Made by a program: the position numbers and the translations under genes. A DNA stretch of 64,000 nucleotides from contig NZ_LMUT01000016.1 of NCBI RefSeq assembly GCF_009765785.1, positions 70,212 through 134,211 on the forward strand, read 5' to 3'. Positions 35,122 through 43,519 of the stretch are shown piece by piece (the first letter of the stretch is position 1; the number at the start of each line of letters is the position of its first letter). This stretch comes from Granulicella sp. L46. GTDB taxonomy: Bacteria > Acidobacteriota > Terriglobia > Terriglobales > Acidobacteriaceae. Under the pieces are notes generated by a model. It was not told where the DNA came from. It searched no databases and saw only the letters and a list, made by a program, of their open reading frames with translations.

Positions 35122-35463
35122 TTATGCCGTTGCGCAGGCGTCGACTGCCTCTTGTTCCGTGGCAAAAACGCCGAAGAGGCTGAGAATTCCAACCATCTTG
35201 AAGGTTTTCGTGGCAAAAGAAGAGGGGTTGACGAGCTTGGTATCGCCCCCTATTTGTCGAGTGCGCCGAAGCGCATTGACGATTGCGCCGATGCCAGAGG
35301 AATCGATAAAAGGCATCTGCTCCAAATCAAGAATGAGATAGATGCAGCCACTAGAGATGGCGGATTCGAGGGCTGCGTCAAATTCCGGGACGTTGGAAGA
35401 CTTGAGCTGGCCTTTGATGCGAAGGGAGCAGGTGTTTCCGCTTTGCTTTATGTCGAGATCCAC
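35122..35463 (-). CDS. STAS-domain protein (anti-sigma factor antagonist type)
   Basis: 113 residues, one STAS domain. It has the strand-helix pattern CSLRIKGQLKSSNVPEFDAAL, the LILDLEQMPFIDSSGIGAIV core with the serine pair S55-S56 at the usual phosphorylation position, and the closing GGDTKLVNPSSFATKTFKMV. Such proteins switch partner kinases or anti-sigma factors by phosphorylation of that Ser. No RsbW-type kinase is nearby. It is divergent from the GAF-HlyD gene, with 143 bases between them, so the two share a regulatory region. Its link to the export operon is positional only. Confidence 0.8.
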   Translation of the reverse strand: MDLDIKQSGNTCSLRIKGQLKSSNVPEFDAALESAISSGCIYLILDLEQMPFIDSSGIGAIVNALRRTRQIGGDTKLVNPSSFATKTFKMVGILSLFGVFATEQEAVDACATA

Positions 35464-35606: not shown

Positions 35607-38012
35607 ATGTCAATGCCCAGCCGTCCCGCCCTGGAACTGACGAATGAGCTTCTCACCGCTACGGATTCCTCTGTCCGGGCGCGGTTGATTGCTCTTGCTG
35701 TCGTCGAATCCATCAAGGATAGCGCCTGCCTGGTGCATAGGTTGCTTGAGGGGGACGAGGGACCGATGCTTTTGCCAGTGGGAATGGCGGGGCCGGTGTC
35801 CATGGGGGAACAGATGCTGCCGGCGGACAGCGATCTGGTGCTTCCATTATTGGCCGGGCGCGAGGAATCTTTGGTGTACTCGGGAGCCCAGGTGCCACGG
35901 GAGGAGTATGCCCATGTGAACGTGTCGCGTTCGATCGCTTCGCTGGTGTATGTTCCATTTTCCCAGGCGGGAACTGTAGTGGGGCTAATTGAAGTGTTGA
36001 CGTTTGCGGAACCAATCACTGCGGCGGAGCTGGAACGACTGGCCGACCTGGTGACGCTGGCAGGGCCGGCAATTCTTGCGGCGGAGGAGTTTGAGCGACA
36101 GCGGCAGGATCTGTTGGATTCGGTGCACCGAATGACCCAGCTATATGACCTGGAAAAGTCGTTGAATGCGACGCTGGAACTGGATGCGGTGATCGCGATG
36201 GCGCCGGCGAAGACGTCGGCGATGCTGGAGTGCCAGGCGATGCATCTCTGGCTTTTCGACGGCGATGAACTGCGCTTGATGGCGGCACATGGTGAAGATG
36301 CCACGGTAGAAATAGGGGCGATCCAGACCCCGGATGAAGGCTACGTAGCCACGATGGCGCACGAAGGCGAACCGCTGTTGATTGATGATGCCGAAGACCC
36401 ACGATTGTTGCAACGGAATACTGCGCTGGAGTCGCTTTCCGAGGAGCAGCGGACCGAGCGCGTCACGAACGCGCTGGTCGTGCCGTTGATGCAGGATGAA
36501 TCAGAGGTTGGCGTCCTGGAAGCGGTAAACCGGGGTGGTGGGAAAGTATTTGATGAGGACGATCAATTTTTTCTCTCCGCGATGGCGGAGACGGTGAGCA
36601 ATGCCCTGAAGAACGCCAGCCTGATGCATGCCGAGCGAAAGCTGGAGATATTGGAGGCTCTGGTCCACGTCAGCTCGGAGATTACGTCGACACTGAGGTT
36701 GGACCGCCTGCTACAGATCATAGTGAATAGCCCACAGAGTGTGCTCCCGTATGAGCTGTCCGCGATCGCTTTGGACAACAGAGGTAACTTGCAGCTGAAG
36801 GCTGTTTCTGGGATGGCGAGCATCCCAATGGGCGACGTTCAGGTCGACAGGCTAAAGGATCTTGTGCGCTGGCTGAGTTCGGAGTCGTCAGTGCTGCATG
36901 CCCGCCAAACCGAGCAGGAAAATGCGGAGGAGATCGCGGAGGCGGTGGCACGATACTTCGAAGGCACGGGATATCGCGCTCTGTACGCTTTACCGTTGGT
37001 AGACGACCAGGGACGCGTAGGAATGCTCCTGTATGCGGCGAGCGACCCAGATTTTCTGGACGCCGCGCAGATGGAGATGGTCAAGATTCTGGCGGCCCAG
37101 GCGACTGTAGCTATTCGAAATGCGCTGCTGTATCGCGAGGTGCCGCTGATTGGATTGCTGGAGCCACTGATGCAGAAGAAGCGTGAGATTCTGCGGACCA
37201 GCGGAAGTCGGAGGTTGTTTTACGGCGGGTTGACGGCAGCGGTGCTGCTGTTCCTGCTGTTCTGCCCGCTGCCGATGAGGATATCGGGAGAGGCGACGGT
37301 GGAGCCACAGCACCTAGTGACGATTGCAGCGCCCACCGACGGCAATGTGGAGGCGGTCGCCGTGCGGGAGGGCCAGCGTGTAACGGCGGGACAACAACTG
37401 GGGACGATGAATGACTGGCAGTGGAAGGCGGATCTGGCCGCAACACAGGCAAAGTACGAGGCGGCTGAGTTGGGAATGGAGGCGAGTCTGGCTGGCGGTT
37501 CGGCGCAGGCGGGCGAGGATCGGGCCCAGGTGGAGTATTTGCGGACAGCGGTTGCGAGGGCTCAAAGTCGAGTCGATAGTGCGGAACTGCGCTCGCCAAT
37601 TGATGGCCTGGTGGCGACGCCGGCGTTGCAAAGCGCGGCGGGGGAGCATTTAAATGCAGGGGATCCGTTTGCGAAGGTGCTGGATCTGTCGTCGGTGGTG
37701 ATGGATATTTCGATCGCGCAAAGTGACGTTGCGCTGGTGCGGCCGGGGGACAGAGCCGTTATCAAGCTGGACAGCTATCCGCAGCAGACATGGCGCGGAG
37801 TGGTGAACATTGTTAGTCCTCTTGCGCAGACGGTGAATGATGAGCGCACGTTCGCGGCACGAGTCCCACTGGAGAACAGGAACGCAACCCTGCGTGCTGG
37901 GATGAGTGGACATGGAAAAATTTTCATTGGCTACCGTTCCGCAGGCTATGTTCTGCTGCGCAAGCCGGCGCTTTGGATATGGCAGACATTGTGGAACTGG
38001 ATAGGTTGGTGA
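35607..38012 (+). CDS. GAF-domain/HlyD fusion membrane protein
   Basis: 801 residues with an unusual order. Three GAF-like modules fill about residues 1-520 (the second, LYDLEKSLNATLELDAVIA to AMAETVSNALKNA, is the clearest). One membrane helix follows at ~538-556 (LFYGGLTAAVLLFLLFCPLP). Then comes a HlyD-type adaptor: barrel-sandwich halves EATVEPQHLVTIAAPTDGNV and LRSPIDGLVATPA around a short coiled region, and the beta-barrel SVVMDISIAQSDVALVRPGD. So a cytoplasmic sensory part is joined to a periplasmic efflux-adaptor part. It is the first gene of a three-gene operon with a HlyD lipoprotein (4-base gap) and an M50-HlyD protein. GAF domains bind small molecules or cyclic nucleotides; the ligand is unknown. 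Confidence 0.8.
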   Translation: MSMPSRPALELTNELLTATDSSVRARLIALAVVESIKDSACLVHRLLEGDEGPMLLPVGMAGPVSMGEQMLPADSDLVLPLLAGREESLVYSGAQVPREEYAHVNVSRSIASLVYVPFSQAGTVVGLIEVLTFAEPITAAELERLADLVTLAGPAILAAEEFERQRQDLLDSVHRMTQLYDLEKSLNATLELDAVIAMAPAKTSAMLECQAMHLWLFDGDELRLMAAHGEDATVEIGAIQTPDEGYVATMAHEGEPLLIDDAEDPRLLQRNTALESLSEEQRTERVTNALVVPLMQDESEVGVLEAVNRGGGKVFDEDDQFFLSAMAETVSNALKNASLMHAERKLEILEALVHVSSEITSTLRLDRLLQIIVNSPQSVLPYELSAIALDNRGNLQLKAVSGMASIPMGDVQVDRLKDLVRWLSSESSVLHARQTEQENAEEIAEAVARYFEGTGYRALYALPLVDDQGRVGMLLYAASDPDFLDAAQMEMVKILAAQATVAIRNALLYREVPLIGLLEPLMQKKREILRTSGSRRLFYGGLTAAVLLFLLFCPLPMRISGEATVEPQHLVTIAAPTDGNVEAVAVREGQRVTAGQQLGTMNDWQWKADLAATQAKYEAAELGMEASLAGGSAQAGEDRAQVEYLRTAVARAQSRVDSAELRSPIDGLVATPALQSAAGEHLNAGDPFAKVLDLSSVVMDISIAQSDVALVRPGDRAVIKLDSYPQQTWRGVVNIVSPLAQTVNDERTFAARVPLENRNATLRAGMSGHGKIFIGYRSAGYVLLRKPALWIWQTLWNWIGW

Positions 38013-38016
38013 TGCA

Positions 38017-38973
38017 ATGAATAATTCTTCGTTGTTGCGATGGCCGGTGAGCATTGGGGCGGCGGCCATAGTGTCCCTGCTGACAGTTGCGACTGTTTGC
38101 GGCTGTGACTCGCGGCCGACAGCCCAGCCAGCAGTGGAGGCGGCCACGACGCCGGCGTCGGGGCGAGTGCCAATGCCTGGCGATTCAACTGCACCTAGAT
38201 CGTTCAGCACGTCCGGTCCACTGGTTGCGGAGCAGCAGGCAGATGTCGCTGCTCAACGCGATGGGCGCGTAATAGAGGTTGTGGTAGACATTGGCGATCA
38301 TGTGCGGAAGGGCCAACTCATGGCATTGCTGGACGATCGTGCGCTACTTGCGGCGTGCGACGAGGAGAAGGCAAAGGTAGCGTCGCTGCAGGCTCAGGTG
38401 AAGGAGTGGCAGTCGCAGCAGCAGGTGGATGAGGCTGATCTGCGGCGCGCGGATGCCCTGCGAGCGGACCGCATTCTCAGCGATGAGGACTGGGAGCATG
38501 TGAAGTACAAGCTGGCGGAAACCGTATCGGAAGTAGACCGCTACAAGGCGGATGAGGCGGGCGCTGAGGCCAGGTTGCAGGCGGCAAATCTTCAACTGGC
38601 ACAGTCACGAATCATTGCGCCCTTCACTGGAGTAGTCGGGCGGCGATCCTTGCGAATGGCACAGGAGGTGAAGACAGGGGACGTGCTGTTCTGGGTTACC
38701 GCGGCCGCGCCGCTGCATGTCATGTTTACGGTGCCGGAGTCGGCGATGCGAGCGTTCGAGCGCGGAGCGAGCTTGGTGCTTACGACGGAGGATTATCCGA
38801 GGCTAAAACAGAAGGGTCGAGTGTATCGGGTAAGTCCAGTGGTAGATCCGGCGAGTGGAAGCGTGCAGGTCATTGGTGAGGTAATCGACCCGTCGCCACT
38901 GCTAAAGCCGGGAATGACGATGCAGGTGCGGGCAGCGGTTAGCGCGAAAGACACGGTGGCGCAAGAGCGATGA
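38017..38973 (+). CDS. HlyD/RND-type periplasmic adaptor, probable lipoprotein
   Basis: 318 residues. An N-terminal hydrophobic segment ends TVATVCGCDS, giving a plausible lipobox with Cys at +1. The lipoyl halves (VAEQQADVAAQRDGRVIEVV and SRIIAPFTGVVGRRSL), an alpha-hairpin and a beta-barrel (PLHVMFTVPESAMRAF) follow. It ends with the membrane-proximal strands (VDPASGSVQVIGEVIDP). No RND pump or ABC transporter is in the operon; the partner is presumably the M50-HlyD protein, whose gene overlaps this one by 4 bases (ATGA). It starts at ATG 38017, 4 bases after the upstream stop. Confidence 0.85.
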   Translation: MNNSSLLRWPVSIGAAAIVSLLTVATVCGCDSRPTAQPAVEAATTPASGRVPMPGDSTAPRSFSTSGPLVAEQQADVAAQRDGRVIEVVVDIGDHVRKGQLMALLDDRALLAACDEEKAKVASLQAQVKEWQSQQQVDEADLRRADALRADRILSDEDWEHVKYKLAETVSEVDRYKADEAGAEARLQAANLQLAQSRIIAPFTGVVGRRSLRMAQEVKTGDVLFWVTAAAPLHVMFTVPESAMRAFERGASLVLTTEDYPRLKQKGRVYRVSPVVDPASGSVQVIGEVIDPSPLLKPGMTMQVRAAVSAKDTVAQER

Positions 38974-41132
38974 ATCTCAGTGAGGCGCTGGACGCAGCAT
39001 TACCGGAGATCCCTAAGGTGCGGCTCTCTCGTGCGCGTCCTCCTCGTCTTGATCCAGAGCTGGTGACACGTGAAGACGTGCTCGACGGAGAACCCATCGT
39101 TGGGATCCTGCAGCGTAGCAAGGGTAGCTTTTTTCGTTTTCAGCCGCCGCAGTGGCAGCTGGCACAGTTGTTTGATGGGATCCGCAGCTACGACGAAATA
39201 GCGCAGAAGTTTAACGAGGAACAGGGTGGCGCTATGACGGCGCGCGAAGCGGAGGAGTTTGCGACCATCCTGGACGAGGCCGGTTTCTGGTTCAAGACAC
39301 CTCAGGAAAAGAATATTGCGTACAGCGCCCGGCTCAAGGCGGAAAGAGGACGAAAAGCGAATCGAACCTCGAAGATCAACTTGGCGCACATCAGCTTTAC
39401 AGCCTGGGACCCGGATAAGTATCTAACGTGGCTGGACGGGATCGTGGGGAAATTCATCTATAGCCGCTGGTGTGTCCTTGTGGTGGTGTTGCTGTTCTGC
39501 TTTGAGGGTGCGGTCTTCGTGGCTAAGTGGAAGGATTTTGGTCCGGATATTCCGCTGTACTACAACTTCACGCACAAGACATTTGCGGACTTTGCTGAGT
39601 TCTGGGTATTGTTGTTCGGCCTTGGATTCATTCACGAGTCCGCTCATGGTTTGACTTGCAAGCATTATGGCGGCGAAGTCCACAATATGGGGCTAATGTT
39701 TCTGTACCTGACGCCTGCGTTTTTTGTGGACGTAACCGAGACGTGGGTGTCGGCGACCAAGATTCAGCGGCTGGCAACGATCATTGCGGGAATCTGGGTG
39801 GAGATGGTGGTGTGTGGGGTGGCGATGATCGTGTGGACGAGTACGCAACCTAGCGCGTTTGTGCACGATCTCGCATACAAGGTGATTTTGATTACCGGCT
39901 TGGCGGTCATCGTAATGAATCTGAATCCGTTGTTGAAGCTTGACGGATATTACTTTCTTACCGAGCTGATTGAGATCCCTGATCTGAAGGAACGGTCGAC
40001 TAGTTTTGTTTCCGCGTGGTTTCAGAGCAGTATTCTGCGGCTTCCGGCTGAAGTGCCATCGGTGCCGCGGCGGCGTGCTCCGCTGTTTGTTGTCTATGCG
40101 TTGGTCTCCGGGGCATACAGCTACATGATGCTCTTCTTTGTGATCCGGTTTTCCTACAATGTAAGCTCCAAATTTGTGGAGGAGTTTGCTTTGATTCCCG
40201 CGGGCGCTATGGCAATTGCGATTTTTCGAGGCCGGTTGAAATCGCTGGCTGGCGTGGCGAAGGAATTTGGGAAAACCCACATGAACGGACGATTTTGGTG
40301 CCGACCACGGACGCTGGGAGCTGCGTTGGCATTGCTCGTAGTCCTGTTTGTACCAGTAATGCGGGATCGTGTGAATGCATACTTTGTCGTTGAAGCCGCG
40401 AATCCCGTGACGTTGCATGCGCCTGTCAACGGAAAAGTGGAAGCGGTGTACGTGCACGAGGGGGAGACGGTGCGGAGCGGGCAGCTACTGCTGCATATGT
40501 CGAGTCCGGACGTCGCGACGATGGCTTCGAACTCGCAGGCGGCGATAGGTTCGGCGCGCTACCACGCGGTCGAGGCGCAGCTCGGGGGACGGTCGATTGG
40601 CGCGTCAGCTGCGGAAGAGGCTGGCGCGCGACGGTCTGGGGATCTGGCGGAGGAAGCGCAAGCTCTGCTATCGGTGAGAGCGCCTGTGGACGGACGCGTG
40701 GTTACTCCACAGCCGGTTGGATTGATGTATCAACAAGTTGGTTCCGGCGAGCCGTTGCTTACGATTGCCGGTGGAGATTCGGGGCTAGCGATTGAGCGGA
40801 TGCGGCTCTACATTCCTGCAGGCGAGATAAATCGGATTCGCCCCGGCGATGAAGTGTCGATAGCGCTACCAGGGGCTTTCTCATTTTTGCGCTTGCGCCT
40901 GACGTCAATCGAGGGAGAAGCTTCTACGCTGCCGAAGGGCCTTGTAGCGCATCAAGACTATAAAGGGATCGTGCTGCCGACGTTCTATTGTGCTCAACTT
41001 GAATTGCCGCCAGGAAGTCCACGTTTGGCACTGGGTACCGTCGGTCCAGCGAAAGTGTTTGGTGCGCGACGAAGTCTCGCCGGACGCGCTGAACAGATAG
41101 TGATGGACGTAGCCCGCACGCATGTTTGGTAG
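38970..41132 (+). CDS. PqqD-M50 (site-2 protease-like)-HlyD membrane protein
   Basis: 720 residues in three parts. Residues ~10-115 look like a PqqD-type peptide-binding module (GILQRSKGSFFRFQPPQWQL, IRSYDEIAQKFNEEQGG). Residues ~150-480 hold about seven to eight membrane helices with the M50 zinc motif HESAH (H222, E223, H226) and the second-site NLNPLLKLDGYYF (D325). Residues ~490-720 form a HlyD-like barrel-sandwich and beta-barrel (LHAPVNGKVEAVYVHEGETV, VRAPVDGRVVTPQPV). M50 proteins cleave peptides within the membrane. This combination, close to a small peptide gene, points to maturation and export of that peptide. All catalytic residues are present. Confidence 0.85.
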   Translation: MNLSEALDAALPEIPKVRLSRARPPRLDPELVTREDVLDGEPIVGILQRSKGSFFRFQPPQWQLAQLFDGIRSYDEIAQKFNEEQGGAMTAREAEEFATILDEAGFWFKTPQEKNIAYSARLKAERGRKANRTSKINLAHISFTAWDPDKYLTWLDGIVGKFIYSRWCVLVVVLLFCFEGAVFVAKWKDFGPDIPLYYNFTHKTFADFAEFWVLLFGLGFIHESAHGLTCKHYGGEVHNMGLMFLYLTPAFFVDVTETWVSATKIQRLATIIAGIWVEMVVCGVAMIVWTSTQPSAFVHDLAYKVILITGLAVIVMNLNPLLKLDGYYFLTELIEIPDLKERSTSFVSAWFQSSILRLPAEVPSVPRRRAPLFVVYALVSGAYSYMMLFFVIRFSYNVSSKFVEEFALIPAGAMAIAIFRGRLKSLAGVAKEFGKTHMNGRFWCRPRTLGAALALLVVLFVPVMRDRVNAYFVVEAANPVTLHAPVNGKVEAVYVHEGETVRSGQLLLHMSSPDVATMASNSQAAIGSARYHAVEAQLGGRSIGASAAEEAGARRSGDLAEEAQALLSVRAPVDGRVVTPQPVGLMYQQVGSGEPLLTIAGGDSGLAIERMRLYIPAGEINRIRPGDEVSIALPGAFSFLRLRLTSIEGEASTLPKGLVAHQDYKGIVLPTFYCAQLELPPGSPRLALGTVGPAKVFGARRSLAGRAEQIVMDVARTHVW

Positions 41133-41211: not shown

Positions 41212-41433
41212 TTAAAAGGCGGTGCTTTTCGCCAGGGTGACCTTTGCGAGCTTCCCGGACGACTTCGCGAGATTCGCAGTCGACTTTGCGAGGTTCACGT
41301 TCCTTGCCACTCGCAGCGCGGTGACCATCTTCCCAGCGGGGGCAGCGGGCGATGCGGTTGCGGACTTGGAAGCTTTGATGGCGCTGGGCTTGGCGGTGGA
41401 AGACTTGATGATCGACTTCTTGGAAACTGCCAT
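41212..41433 (-). CDS. Small cationic repeat peptide under a sigma-54 promoter (putative export substrate)
   Basis: 73 residues from ATG 41433, with GAGG eight bases upstream. No Asp, Glu, Cys, Tyr or Trp; 12 Lys and 2 Arg, so strongly basic. The first ~34 residues are Lys/Ser/Ala/Pro-rich (MAVSKKSIIKSSTAK). The C-terminal 26 are an imperfect repeat built on LAK: NLAKSTA, NLAKSSG, KLAKVT, LAKSTAF. No known family or signal peptide is recognised. A perfect-looking sigma-54 promoter lies about 50 bases upstream, and a sigma-54 activator gene begins behind it. It converges on the GAF-HlyD/HlyD/M50 operon. I infer that it is the substrate of that operon. Alternative: a histone H1-like DNA-binding protein. 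Confidence 0.7.
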   Translation of the reverse strand: MAVSKKSIIKSSTAKPSAIKASKSATASPAAPAGKMVTALRVARNVNLAKSTANLAKSSGKLAKVTLAKSTAF

Positions 41434-41481
41434 GATCGTAACCTCGAATAGGAATTTGAACTGCTGTACGGCTAAATGAAG

Positions 41482-41497
41482 TGCAACCGATGTGCCA
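41482..41497 (-). promoter_or_regulatory. Sigma-54 (-24/-12) promoter of the peptide gene
   Basis: Read on the - strand: TGGCACATCGGTTGCA. The consensus is TGGCACG-N4-TTGCW, and only the seventh position differs. GG and GC are 10 bases apart as required. The start point would be near 41470, leaving a 5' leader of about 35-40 bases with the ribosome site. The sigma-54 activator gene at 41648-43084 ends about 150 bases upstream of the promoter. A CCTCTT (41571-41576)/AAGAGG (41593-41598) inverted repeat lies 75-100 bases upstream and could be the activator site. Confidence 0.8.
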
Positions 41498-41647: not shown

Positions 41648-43084
41648 TTACGCCAAGCCGTATTTGCGACACAGATACTTGATACGTTGACCGTCAAGAT
41701 TCAACAGCCGGGCCGCGGCCGCCTTATTGCCCTGAGTGCGACGAAGGGCGGCGTTGAGGAGAGCGACTTCCATCTGCTGAATCTCATGGTCGAAGTCGGA
41801 ACCTGACTCAGGAAGCAGAGCCGCCTCGCTGGCGGCGAGGTTGGTTGCGAGCAGCCGAGATGGCAAATGGGTGGCTTGAATCTCTTCTCCGCGTACCGTG
41901 ATTACCAGGCGCTGAATGAGATTCTCTAACTCGCGAACATTACCAGGCCAGATGTGTTGTTCAAAAGCAGATAGGGCGGTATCGTCGATGTGTTTGATGG
42001 GAACGCCATTGGAGATGCAGTGGGTCTGGAGAAAATGTTCGCACAGGATCGGAATATCGCCGAGACGCTCGCGCAGCGGGGGGAGTTGTATCGGGACGAC
42101 GTGAATGCGGTAGTAAAGATCTTCGCGAAAACGTCCGGTACGGGCCATCTCCTCGAGATCTTCATTAGTAGCGCAGATCAAACGAAAATCGATCTTGCGC
42201 AGCGTGCGGCCGCCGAGTCGTTGGACCATGTGGTCCTCGAGTACGCGGAGGAGTTTGGTTTGAAGGGACAGGGTCAGGGTCGCGATCTCATCGAGGAAGA
42301 GCGTGCCGCCGTCGGCCAATTCAATCTGGCCCGGGCGGGCCTCTGTGGCTCCGGTGAAAGCGCCGCGCTCGCTGCCGAAGAGCTCAGACTCGATGAGATC
42401 CTGGGGAAGGGCAGCGCAATTCAGGCGGATGTATGGCTTGTTCGCGCGGGGGCTAAGAGCCACGATGGCGCGAGCAACTAACTCTTTTCCCGTGCCGCTT
42501 TCGCCGCGAACTAATACGTTGACGTTGCTGCCGGCGACTTGTTGGATGGCATCGTAGACGGTACGCATCGATTCGCTTCCACCGATGAAATCCTGGAATC
42601 GGCTGTTCTCAAAGGCCTGCTGCCGCATATGCTGCCGGGCGGATTCCTCGCTTCGTGTGCGAAGGAGGTCAACCAGAGCCAGTCGAAGCTCCGAGATGTC
42701 GACTGGACTTCGAAAGTGCGCGTCGGCGCCTGCTTCGAGCGCCTGTTTCTCGACCGAACGAGTGCGAGAGCGGCTGAGTGAGATGAGTACGAACTCGCTG
42801 TTAAGCCTACGCAATTCGTTGAGGACAGAGAGGCCGCCGTAGGTGCGCTCGTCGTCGCTATCGCCAGTATCGATATCGAGTAGAACGGCCTGAACCTGGG
42901 ATTCACGCGTCCATCGGGCAAGGTCCTCGTAGGTCTCTCGAAGTACGATCTGAAACCAGGGCATGAGTTCCGGACCCAGGTCTTCGACGAACTGATTATC
43001 TACGGTAACAACGCAGACGACGGGGAGGCGGGAATGCTGTGACAGAGGAGATGCCTTGTCAACTGCACGTCGTCGCGAGGCCAT
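41648..43084 (-). CDS. Sigma-54-dependent transcriptional activator (response-regulator type)
   Basis: 478 residues from ATG 43084; the frame is open upstream but that part is not receiver-like. Residues ~15-140 form a receiver-like domain with a candidate phospho-acceptor Asp70 in AVLLDIDTG. The AAA+ domain has Walker A GESGTGKE (194-201), the sigma-54 contact loop GAFTGA (241-246, intact), Walker B GTLFLDEI and the R-finger region LYYRIHVVPIQLPPLRER. It ends with a Fis-type helix-turn-helix (RTQGNKAAAARLLNLDGQRI). It remodels RNA polymerase bound at -24/-12 promoters. The nearest such promoter is that of the peptide gene directly downstream. No cognate histidine kinase is adjacent. Confidence 0.9.
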   Translation of the reverse strand: MASRRRAVDKASPLSQHSRLPVVCVVTVDNQFVEDLGPELMPWFQIVLRETYEDLARWTRESQVQAVLLDIDTGDSDDERTYGGLSVLNELRRLNSEFVLISLSRSRTRSVEKQALEAGADAHFRSPVDISELRLALVDLLRTRSEESARQHMRQQAFENSRFQDFIGGSESMRTVYDAIQQVAGSNVNVLVRGESGTGKELVARAIVALSPRANKPYIRLNCAALPQDLIESELFGSERGAFTGATEARPGQIELADGGTLFLDEIATLTLSLQTKLLRVLEDHMVQRLGGRTLRKIDFRLICATNEDLEEMARTGRFREDLYYRIHVVPIQLPPLRERLGDIPILCEHFLQTHCISNGVPIKHIDDTALSAFEQHIWPGNVRELENLIQRLVITVRGEEIQATHLPSRLLATNLAASEAALLPESGSDFDHEIQQMEVALLNAALRRTQGNKAAAARLLNLDGQRIKYLCRKYGLA

Positions 43085-43519
43085 GCGCCATAGTAAACGA
43101 AAGATGGAAAATCTCGAACGATAAGGGGCTGCAAGAATGGCGGGGAGCCGAAGGGCGAGATAATCAACTCCCAGGAACCTTTCGGTACGTCTCGCATGCC
43201 TCGTATGCGCTGCAGTTGCGTCTAGGCCGATGGTTCTTCGTGTAAAATCGCCCCAAAAATCCAGTTTGCAGAGAATCCCGGCCAAGTTGGTGAACCGCTT
43301 TGACTCGGCTGTTTAGAGGATCGACCGCGCATAGAGATCCGCATCACAACCAGCTGGAAGCTGCTTACGGAGTGATGCGAATGCTACTAGAGGGGAGAAG
43401 ACGGCTCATACCGCTGCGAGAAACCCGAAACGGCAAGCTGATGATGGAACTCGCCAGCGGCTTTTTCGTGACTGTCACTTCGGTCTATTGCCACAAACCC
43501 CTGACTTCCTTAGGTTTGA
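43085..43519. other. Intergenic region between the sigma-54 activator and tRNA-Asp
   Basis: 435 bases containing no supportable gene. It should hold the activator's promoter (- strand). I did not find a clear -35/-10 or -24/-12 motif in it. Confidence 0.4.

Follow-up and report, generated by a model that had tools for sequence, protein, structure and literature searches.

The locus considered here raises the question of what a small lysine-rich peptide, devoid of acidic residues, does between a set of membrane fusion proteins and a sigma-54-dependent regulator. It lies in the window, the whole stretch of 64,000 nucleotides from Granulicella sp. L46 that was analysed. An earlier note on this DNA had suggested that the peptide could be an exported antimicrobial, signal or surface-building product, and had named a histone H1-like nucleoid protein as the principal alternative. 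The features on which the argument depends are the following, in window coordinates.

35122 to 35463, minus strand: STAS-domain protein of 113 residues, a neighbour that adjoins the cassette in many loci, not all
35607 to 38012, plus strand: GAF-domain HlyD membrane fusion protein of 801 residues
38017 to 38973, plus strand: HlyD-family membrane fusion protein of 318 residues, with a lipoprotein-like N-terminus (VCGC, by eye)
38970 to 41132, plus strand: fusion protein of 720 residues joining RRE, M50 metalloprotease and HlyD parts
39033 to 39296, plus strand: RRE/PqqD-like, putative leader-binding domain, about residues 22–109 of that fusion
41212 to 41433, minus strand: gene of the leader/tandem-repeat peptide, 73 residues, stop codon at 41212–41214; it scores E 1.1e-5 with the leader profile, to which its own leader contributes a row
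41215 to 41295, minus strand: C-terminal repeat block, residues 47–73, NLAKSTA NLAKSSG KLAKVT LAKSTAF
41362 to 41433, minus strand: N-terminal leader, residues 1–24, MAVSKKSIIKSSTAKPSAIKASKS, assigned to the KKSLI leader family by alignment of 25 leaders; its border with the core is approximate
41442 to 41445, minus strand: GAGG, a likely ribosome-binding site read from the sequence
41482 to 41497, minus strand: sigma-54 (-24/-12) promoter TGGCACATCGGTTGCA, assigned by consensus match and family statistics
41648 to 43285, minus strand: sigma-54 enhancer-binding activator (REC-like, AAA+ and Fis-type HTH parts), conserved in position, start codon uncertain

The export neighbours seen in the earlier note are indeed present, and amount to three HlyD-domain proteins. 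The GAF-HlyD, HlyD and M50-HlyD genes form an apparent plus-strand operon that converges with the peptide gene, while the activator gene lies upstream of the peptide on the peptide's own strand. Past the activator, the window continues into cytochrome oxidase and bc-complex genes.

The open reading frame reported at 41212–41433 is found there on the minus strand and encodes MAVSKKSIIKSSTAKPSAIKASKSATASPAAPAGKMVTALRVARNVNLAKSTANLAKSSGKLAKVTLAKSTAF, a chain of 73 residues with 12 Lys, 2 Arg and zero Asp or Glu, the composition originally described. Its four LAK units are likewise real, and none of 200,000 composition-preserving shuffles reaches four LAK; a 3-mer of any kind occurs four times in 1,411 of 50,000 shuffles of the peptide, which makes repetition per se only moderately unlikely. 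Amphipathicity of the LAK block, a property raised in the earlier note, is only weak, with a helix moment of 0.304 that 4.7% of shuffles match. An in-frame ATG further upstream would extend the reading frame to 133 residues; the 73-residue start is preferred because this alternative ATG sits above the promoter. The peptide has no Pfam or NCBIfam match.

A chance reading frame or drifting low-complexity DNA would account for the low complexity of the chain and for the outcome of a peptide-only homology search, which at E 0.01 returns the window peptide itself and no match in 149 other family genomes. Such an origin is opposed by the recurrent position, the leader, the promoter and the in-frame selection described below, on which grounds it is rejected for the family and appears barely credible. 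Judged from sequence, the window reading frame is a gene, the strongest evidence being the family members present in relatives.

These members come to light when the M50 protein serves as the query and the gap between the M50 gene and the activator gene is then read. The M50-HlyD protein is encoded in 32 of the 150 sampled family genomes and in 6 of 28 genus genomes, the source genome included, giving the cassette a patchy distribution; used as a 24-row profile, it is found in 37 of 297 phylum genomes at E 1e-60. A single-sequence scan of genome contigs returns zero relatives. The alignment-based contig scan yields 525 candidate loci, and the best 80 of these, which were retained, comprise, judged by record title, 68 from Acidobacteriota and 12 from Planctomycetota or Gemmatimonadota, including Granulicella aggregans, Granulicella sp. 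S190 and several Edaphobacter lichenicola strains. In Acidobacteriota the cassette often runs from STAS through GAF-HlyD, HlyD and the RRE-M50-HlyD fusion to the peptide and the sigma-54 activator, and the M50-to-activator gap holds a small reading frame on the activator's strand. Next to the M50 genes of the Planctomycetota and Gemmatimonadota relatives (L132, L134–L144), a clear repeat peptide is absent.

Across 150 family genomes, apparently the sample used for the M50 search, the leader profile is found in 31, the M50 protein in 32 and both in 29, with 23 of the 31 leader genomes having supplied rows of the profile, so that those matches hold by construction. The M50 protein occurs without a leader in G112 and G116, where contigs end, and in G137, where genes are broken; the leader occurs without the M50 protein in G051 and, weakly, in G035 (E 0.0035). 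New leaders also come from six further genomes, and in five of these they are followed by new repeats (RGNT, LKPGA, LKGGAG, GPAGSV and LATKGG). At L186, L190 and L192, which carry the LKPGA, LKGGAG and GPAGSV units, the repeat reading frame reaches the contig end; the arrays thus probably break assemblies, and such peptides may be under-annotated as a result. Pfam and NCBIfam hold no model that recognises the leader among the peptides scanned, a search of the open-licence PMC literature found no description of the cassette or the leader, and the peptide family is apparently undescribed.

Alignment of the 25 leaders gives the consensus MxxQKKSLIxSRxAxKKAIxA. A reading frame with a leader motif is present in 67 of 72 M50-to-activator gaps, a set of distinct gaps in which the complete M50 end and the activator share one contig: 53 leaders are of the KKSLI type, 8 of a short KKGKKLGxVKPL-like type and 6 of a third type (xIKLTxxQxxxIxxATG). 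Among the five gaps with no motif, four more (L113, L118, L119 and L160) hold short Lys-rich reading frames recognised by eye, a weaker basis than the motif count, and in the L063 gap no leader is seen. Over 108 locus pairs with M50 identity of at least 55%, leader identity averages 0.70 compared with 0.52 for the rest of the peptide, and the leader is the more similar part in 93 pairs. In the extreme case, the leaders of L058 and L059 are 0.88 identical while their cores are built of LAESK and NSPLS repeats, respectively. The comparison of orthologues suggested by the earlier note thus reveals a leader/core pattern, with a conserved N-terminus and variation in both repeat sequence and copy number. 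The core is usually a lineage-specific tandem repeat, with units such as LAKSTN, LAPNK, LSGAKG, LSGGRGN, KLAAKAPA, VGHSPKV, RVQS, MAADAGS, NSPLS, GTTR, LQGGGG and more. A hydrophobic stretch of signal-peptide type is absent from the family peptides, whose cores are rich in small residues and almost free of Cys, Trp and Tyr; four of 66 cores are net acidic, as low as -21, three of these from one lineage.

This composition bears on the proposal of a cytosolic H1-like nucleoid or ribosome-associated basic peptide, which would suit chains rich in Lys, Ala, Ser and Pro and finds an echo in one sibling that weakly matches H1-like models (30 bits, cut-off 80) and HC2 (15 bits, cut-off 40). Another sibling, used as a shortened query, matches collagen-like adhesins just as weakly, and the proposal leaves both the acidic cores and the linkage to HlyD and M50 genes unexplained. 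With the sibling matches far under their cut-offs, compositional in nature, and with none for the window peptide, the H1-like alternative named in the earlier note is not supported; we reject that identity and regard a cytosolic role of this kind as very improbable. HetL, collagen-like and wall-binding identities are set aside too, the sibling matches all falling under cut-off. A single match exceeds its cut-off, that of the G. aggregans peptide to PF06131, an uncharacterised Schizosaccharomyces pombe repeat, at 23.5 bits (cut-off 21, E 3.6e-5), and is taken as low-complexity chance.

Some gaps show two further arrangements. In the L118, L119 and L122 gaps, a SET-domain protein of 151 residues on the minus strand adjoins Lys-rich peptides of 26–27 residues (Pfam SET E 6.7e-19 in L118 and 2.7e-19 in L122, L119 being assigned by near-identity), and might act on the peptide as a lysine methyltransferase. 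L118, L119, L122, L123 and L125 each hold several paralogous KKGKK-type peptides of 23–46 residues per gap, some with sigma-54 boxes of their own.

The sigma-54 promoter proposed for the window peptide withstands closer analysis. The box TTTGGCACATCGGTTGCACT agrees with the consensus at 11 of 11 positions, its TGGCAC starting at 41497 on the minus strand, 64 nt upstream of the peptide ATG. The source genome encodes sigma-54 itself (PF04552, E 2.5e-56), and the strict pattern TTGGCACN5TTGCW occurs at 4 sites in its 5.48 Mb compared with 1 for a reversed control pattern. Across the family, a box scoring at least 9/11 lies within 160 nt in 58 of 66 peptides versus 1.9% of 2,640 shuffles, and one scoring at least 10/11 in 37 of 66 versus 0.2%. 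Moreover, a box stands on the peptide strand in 66 of the 72 M50-to-activator gaps, the remaining six scoring 8. Sigma-54 promoters and HlyD/M50 neighbours, claimed for this one locus, recur across the family. The other three strict sites of the source genome are G000:C2:514070, C5:408367 and C5:1258062; the first lies upstream of a reading frame that resembles, by eye only, an outer-membrane protein with a carboxypeptidase-regulatory domain.

The repeats themselves are maintained at the protein level. Between adjacent units of 53 arrays, chosen by amino-acid periodicity and phylogenetically non-independent, some being close relatives, 0.557 of silent sites differ compared with 0.088 of amino-acid-changing sites. 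These arrays are the 66 peptides minus 13 that have no usable period or contain X, the window's own among the 13. The pooled pN/pS is 0.157, with all 53 arrays below 1 and 52 below 0.5; the L068 array, for example, carries 25 silent differences and 1 changing difference. Unit-to-unit identity reaches 0.646 in frame versus 0.395 and 0.362 out of frame, the in-frame value being highest in 50 of 53 arrays, and copy number rises to about 20. This combination of silent divergence and amino-acid conservation indicates that the arrays are old and kept by protein-level selection. A repeat that is fixed within a lineage and rewritten between lineages suggests either a signal particular to each lineage or a biological material.

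The window copy is an atypical form, a short and degenerate member of this repeat family. Its LAKST unit recurs in the peptide of Granulicella aggregans (L068), which extends over 105 residues and contains LAK nine times, in seven cases as LAKSTN, while the genus relatives L211 and L212 encode peptides of 71 and 73 residues that have in common the stretch KMVSAMRMAK and TLAKATT-like units. Clear repeats are absent from the close relatives L065, L067 and L069, the first of which encodes two peptides, 53 and 46 residues long, that are free of repeats. The few imperfect units of the window copy, together with the relatives that have no clear repeats, imply that repeats are not essential in the window's clade. 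At L065 / L210, where the M50 protein is 69% identical to the window's, both repeat-free peptides stand in tandem behind one strong sigma-54 box, and an activator match is absent from the stretch available after the M50 end.

The RRE-M50-HlyD protein was modelled both in part and as a whole. Modelled alone, its N-terminal 119 residues reach a pLDDT of 81.1 and a pTM of 0.69. With this RRE-only model, the first seven Foldseek rows are all RRE domains, yet with E values of only 0.014–0.067, and VIA-align ranks at the top lasso B1 RREs whose solved structures include a leader peptide (Z 9.8, 9.1 and 8.9), its PqqD row at 7.7 being tied with an unrelated methyltransferase at 7.4. Pfam PqqD recognises 10 of 35 M50-protein members, the window member not among them. 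The N-terminus is, on these models, predicted to adopt an RRE/PqqD-like, leader-binding fold. In the protease part, all 24 members compared retain HExxH and the NP..DGY motif without change, and at the sequence level the M50 motifs are intact. The whole-protein model (pLDDT 78.1, pTM 0.49) finds its best matches among MacA/MexA-type adaptors.

Around the cassette, 51 loci were compared for shared neighbours, with flanks of unequal length that are often ended by contig ends; beyond the cassette genes, nothing recurs in more than 10 of them, so that a pump, a channel or a tailoring enzyme is not evident. The minor shared clusters comprise two of 10 and 5 loci without a Pfam match, perhaps antisense reading frames, a HATPase_c_2 protein in 5 of 51 loci and a Ser/Thr kinase with TPRs in 4 of 51. 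Specifically, no ABC, RND or TolC gene is recurrent in the cassette across the 51 loci, which leaves the energised step of any transport unexplained, and no core-modifying enzyme is recurrent there either, a SET-domain gene being found in 3 loci only; such an enzyme might be encoded elsewhere.

Several described systems share parts of this arrangement. The short precursor with a conserved leader and a variable core, and the predicted RRE/PqqD-like domain, are RiPP-like features, but RiPPs are defined by tailoring enzymes, which the cassette loci lack. The RRE-M50 ribosomal peptide systems, daptides (PMC10036551) and epipeptides (PMC10885120), appear to work in a like manner. Daptide clusters encode the RRE-peptidase DapP (PMC10036551; NCBIfam NF041824), in which an RRE is likewise joined to an M50 metalloprotease and the precursor encoded alongside bears a leader. 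The NCBIfam daptide model covers residues 28–420 of the 720-residue window protein at E 1.7e-47, but under the equivalog cut-off (162.4 bits versus 300). Unlike DapP, the window protein carries an additional fused HlyD domain, and its candidate precursor is a tandem repeat. The decarboxylase, aminotransferase and methyltransferase genes that serve the C-terminal amine of daptides are absent among the recurrent neighbours of the 51 loci and the scanned window neighbours. The EpeP/YydH/LiaK M50 proteases of epipeptides are thought both to cleave and to export a ribosomal peptide (PMC10885120); the window M50 protein matches NF058609 only weakly (E 2.6e-8, 33.8 bits, cut-off 225), the radical SAM epimerase is absent from the same two sets of neighbours, and the window cassette differs in having three HlyD-domain proteins. 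By the features tested, the system is neither daptide nor epipeptide.

TvgA / TigB (PMC9062424) similarly combines a short precursor of tandem small-residue repeats with peptidase and transporter genes alongside, and one acidic sibling, as a shortened query, weakly matches NF047709 (17.6 bits, cut-off 70). Window-type loci differ in having no recurrent radical SAM or dioxygenase partner and in repeats that are lineage-specific rather than one motif. Type I secretion and tripartite efflux have the HlyD adaptor in common with the cassette, where three such proteins occur. The cassette adaptors differ, however, in their fusions, one with an RRE-M50 protease and another with GAF domains, and the ABC transporter and TolC of type I secretion are absent among the recurrent neighbours of the 51 loci and the scanned window neighbours.

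The reading that best accommodates these observations, to which we assign a probability of roughly 0.6, is that the peptide is a precursor handled by a leader-guided export system, in which the M50 protease removes the leader and the repeat core acts outside the cell. A signal would cause the neighbouring activator to fire the sigma-54 promoter, after which the conserved N-terminal leader would dock onto the RRE part of the fusion protein, whose M50 site would cut it off within the inner membrane. The repeat core may then be carried outward by the three HlyD adaptors, together with an outer-membrane channel encoded elsewhere, and the intact repetitive chain could serve outside the cell or on its surface as a component of low complexity. 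Of the presumed leader binding, cleavage, export and extracellular role, the last is the weakest step. Weighing against this reading are the missing pump gene, the modest scores of the RRE model, the peptides' want of a signal-peptide-like segment, the scattered occurrence of the cassette and the repeat-poor members of the window's clade. A conserved front end joined to a lineage-specific repeat, a regulator and a likely export and cutting machine is probably the mark of a secreted repetitive peptide. Export, as the earlier note suggested, is the best-supported interpretation; its three candidate functions, antimicrobial, signal and surface-building, are not separated by the evidence.

The main rival is a multi-core precursor, whose array would be cut into many identical, species-specific signals or antimicrobials of 4–9 residues, as in pheromone precursors or multi-core RiPPs. 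Units that are constant within arrays and changed between lineages, their high copy number and the sigma-54 control all suit this arrangement, and the TvgA tandem-repeat precursor has been proposed to yield several small products (PMC9062424). It would nevertheless call for partners that are not broadly recurrent in the cassette, namely a second protease, a tailoring enzyme and an immunity gene. Moreover, a cleavage residue common to all units is missing, with NSPLS, VASGN and LQGGGG devoid of basic residues, repeats are scarce or absent in several members, and near-total amino-acid conservation across copies seems to exceed what dosage would need. We therefore consider a multi-core product unlikely, while giving it more weight than the other rivals. 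An intact, material-like chain appears preferable in view of the strict unit conservation, the small-residue composition and the lack of a common cleavage residue.

M50 proteases often act in signalling, and the peptide could alternatively be an intracellular or envelope-sensing regulator, whose binding and cutting by the RRE-M50 protein would relay a signal to the activator while the HlyD and GAF proteins sense or hold the complex instead of exporting it. The cassette does contain a STAS protein and the activator, one of its HlyD proteins carries GAF domains, and the HATPase_c_2 protein seen at a few loci would fit as well. This regulatory role is nonetheless improbable: it gives the variable repeats no function, the three membrane-fusion adaptors indicate transport, and the distant relatives sit within TolC-containing clusters.

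Those distant relatives are found on plasmids, in 18 records with M50 relatives that are about 25–31% identical over the aligned part among the 15 matches listed. Eight regions were viewed, six annotated, all from Alphaproteobacteria, and two without annotation. In the six annotated regions, one of which, L217, is truncated by the start of its record, TolC is encoded in L216, L219 and L220, a giant gene in L215, L216 and L219, and a SecA paralogue in three, L214 by annotation and L215 and L219 also by Pfam. Clusters L215 and L219 likewise pair GAF-HlyD with PqqD-M50-type proteins, but giant proteins adjoin them in place of short repeat peptides and the SecA paralogue is present. These alphaproteobacterial clusters resemble a giant-protein export system that has so far gone unrecognised, and their TolC, SecA and giant genes lend support to an export role of the core machine.

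Extending the export reading, the cassette might represent a new class of peptide secretion, a leader-guided RRE-M50-HlyD route without an ABC transporter, switched by sigma-54, which exports unmodified lineage-specific repeats and forms the small-substrate branch of the giant-protein machinery of Alphaproteobacteria. This extension is tentative, and we would sooner expect it to fail than to hold. If it is true, repeats are kept identical by selection within a lineage and replaced between lineages, and a sizeable minority of the family, the 32 of 150 sampled genomes, spends a regulator of its own and a machine with three adaptors on one tiny peptide. It also makes testable the question of whether an RRE-M50-HlyD protein can carry a peptide through the envelope unaided by a classical pump. 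Among the alphaproteobacterial clusters, L214, L215, L216, L219 and L220 join HlyD or GAF-HlyD and M50 with TolC and/or the SecA paralogue, sometimes accompanied by DUF3467 and giant genes of up to 38 kb.
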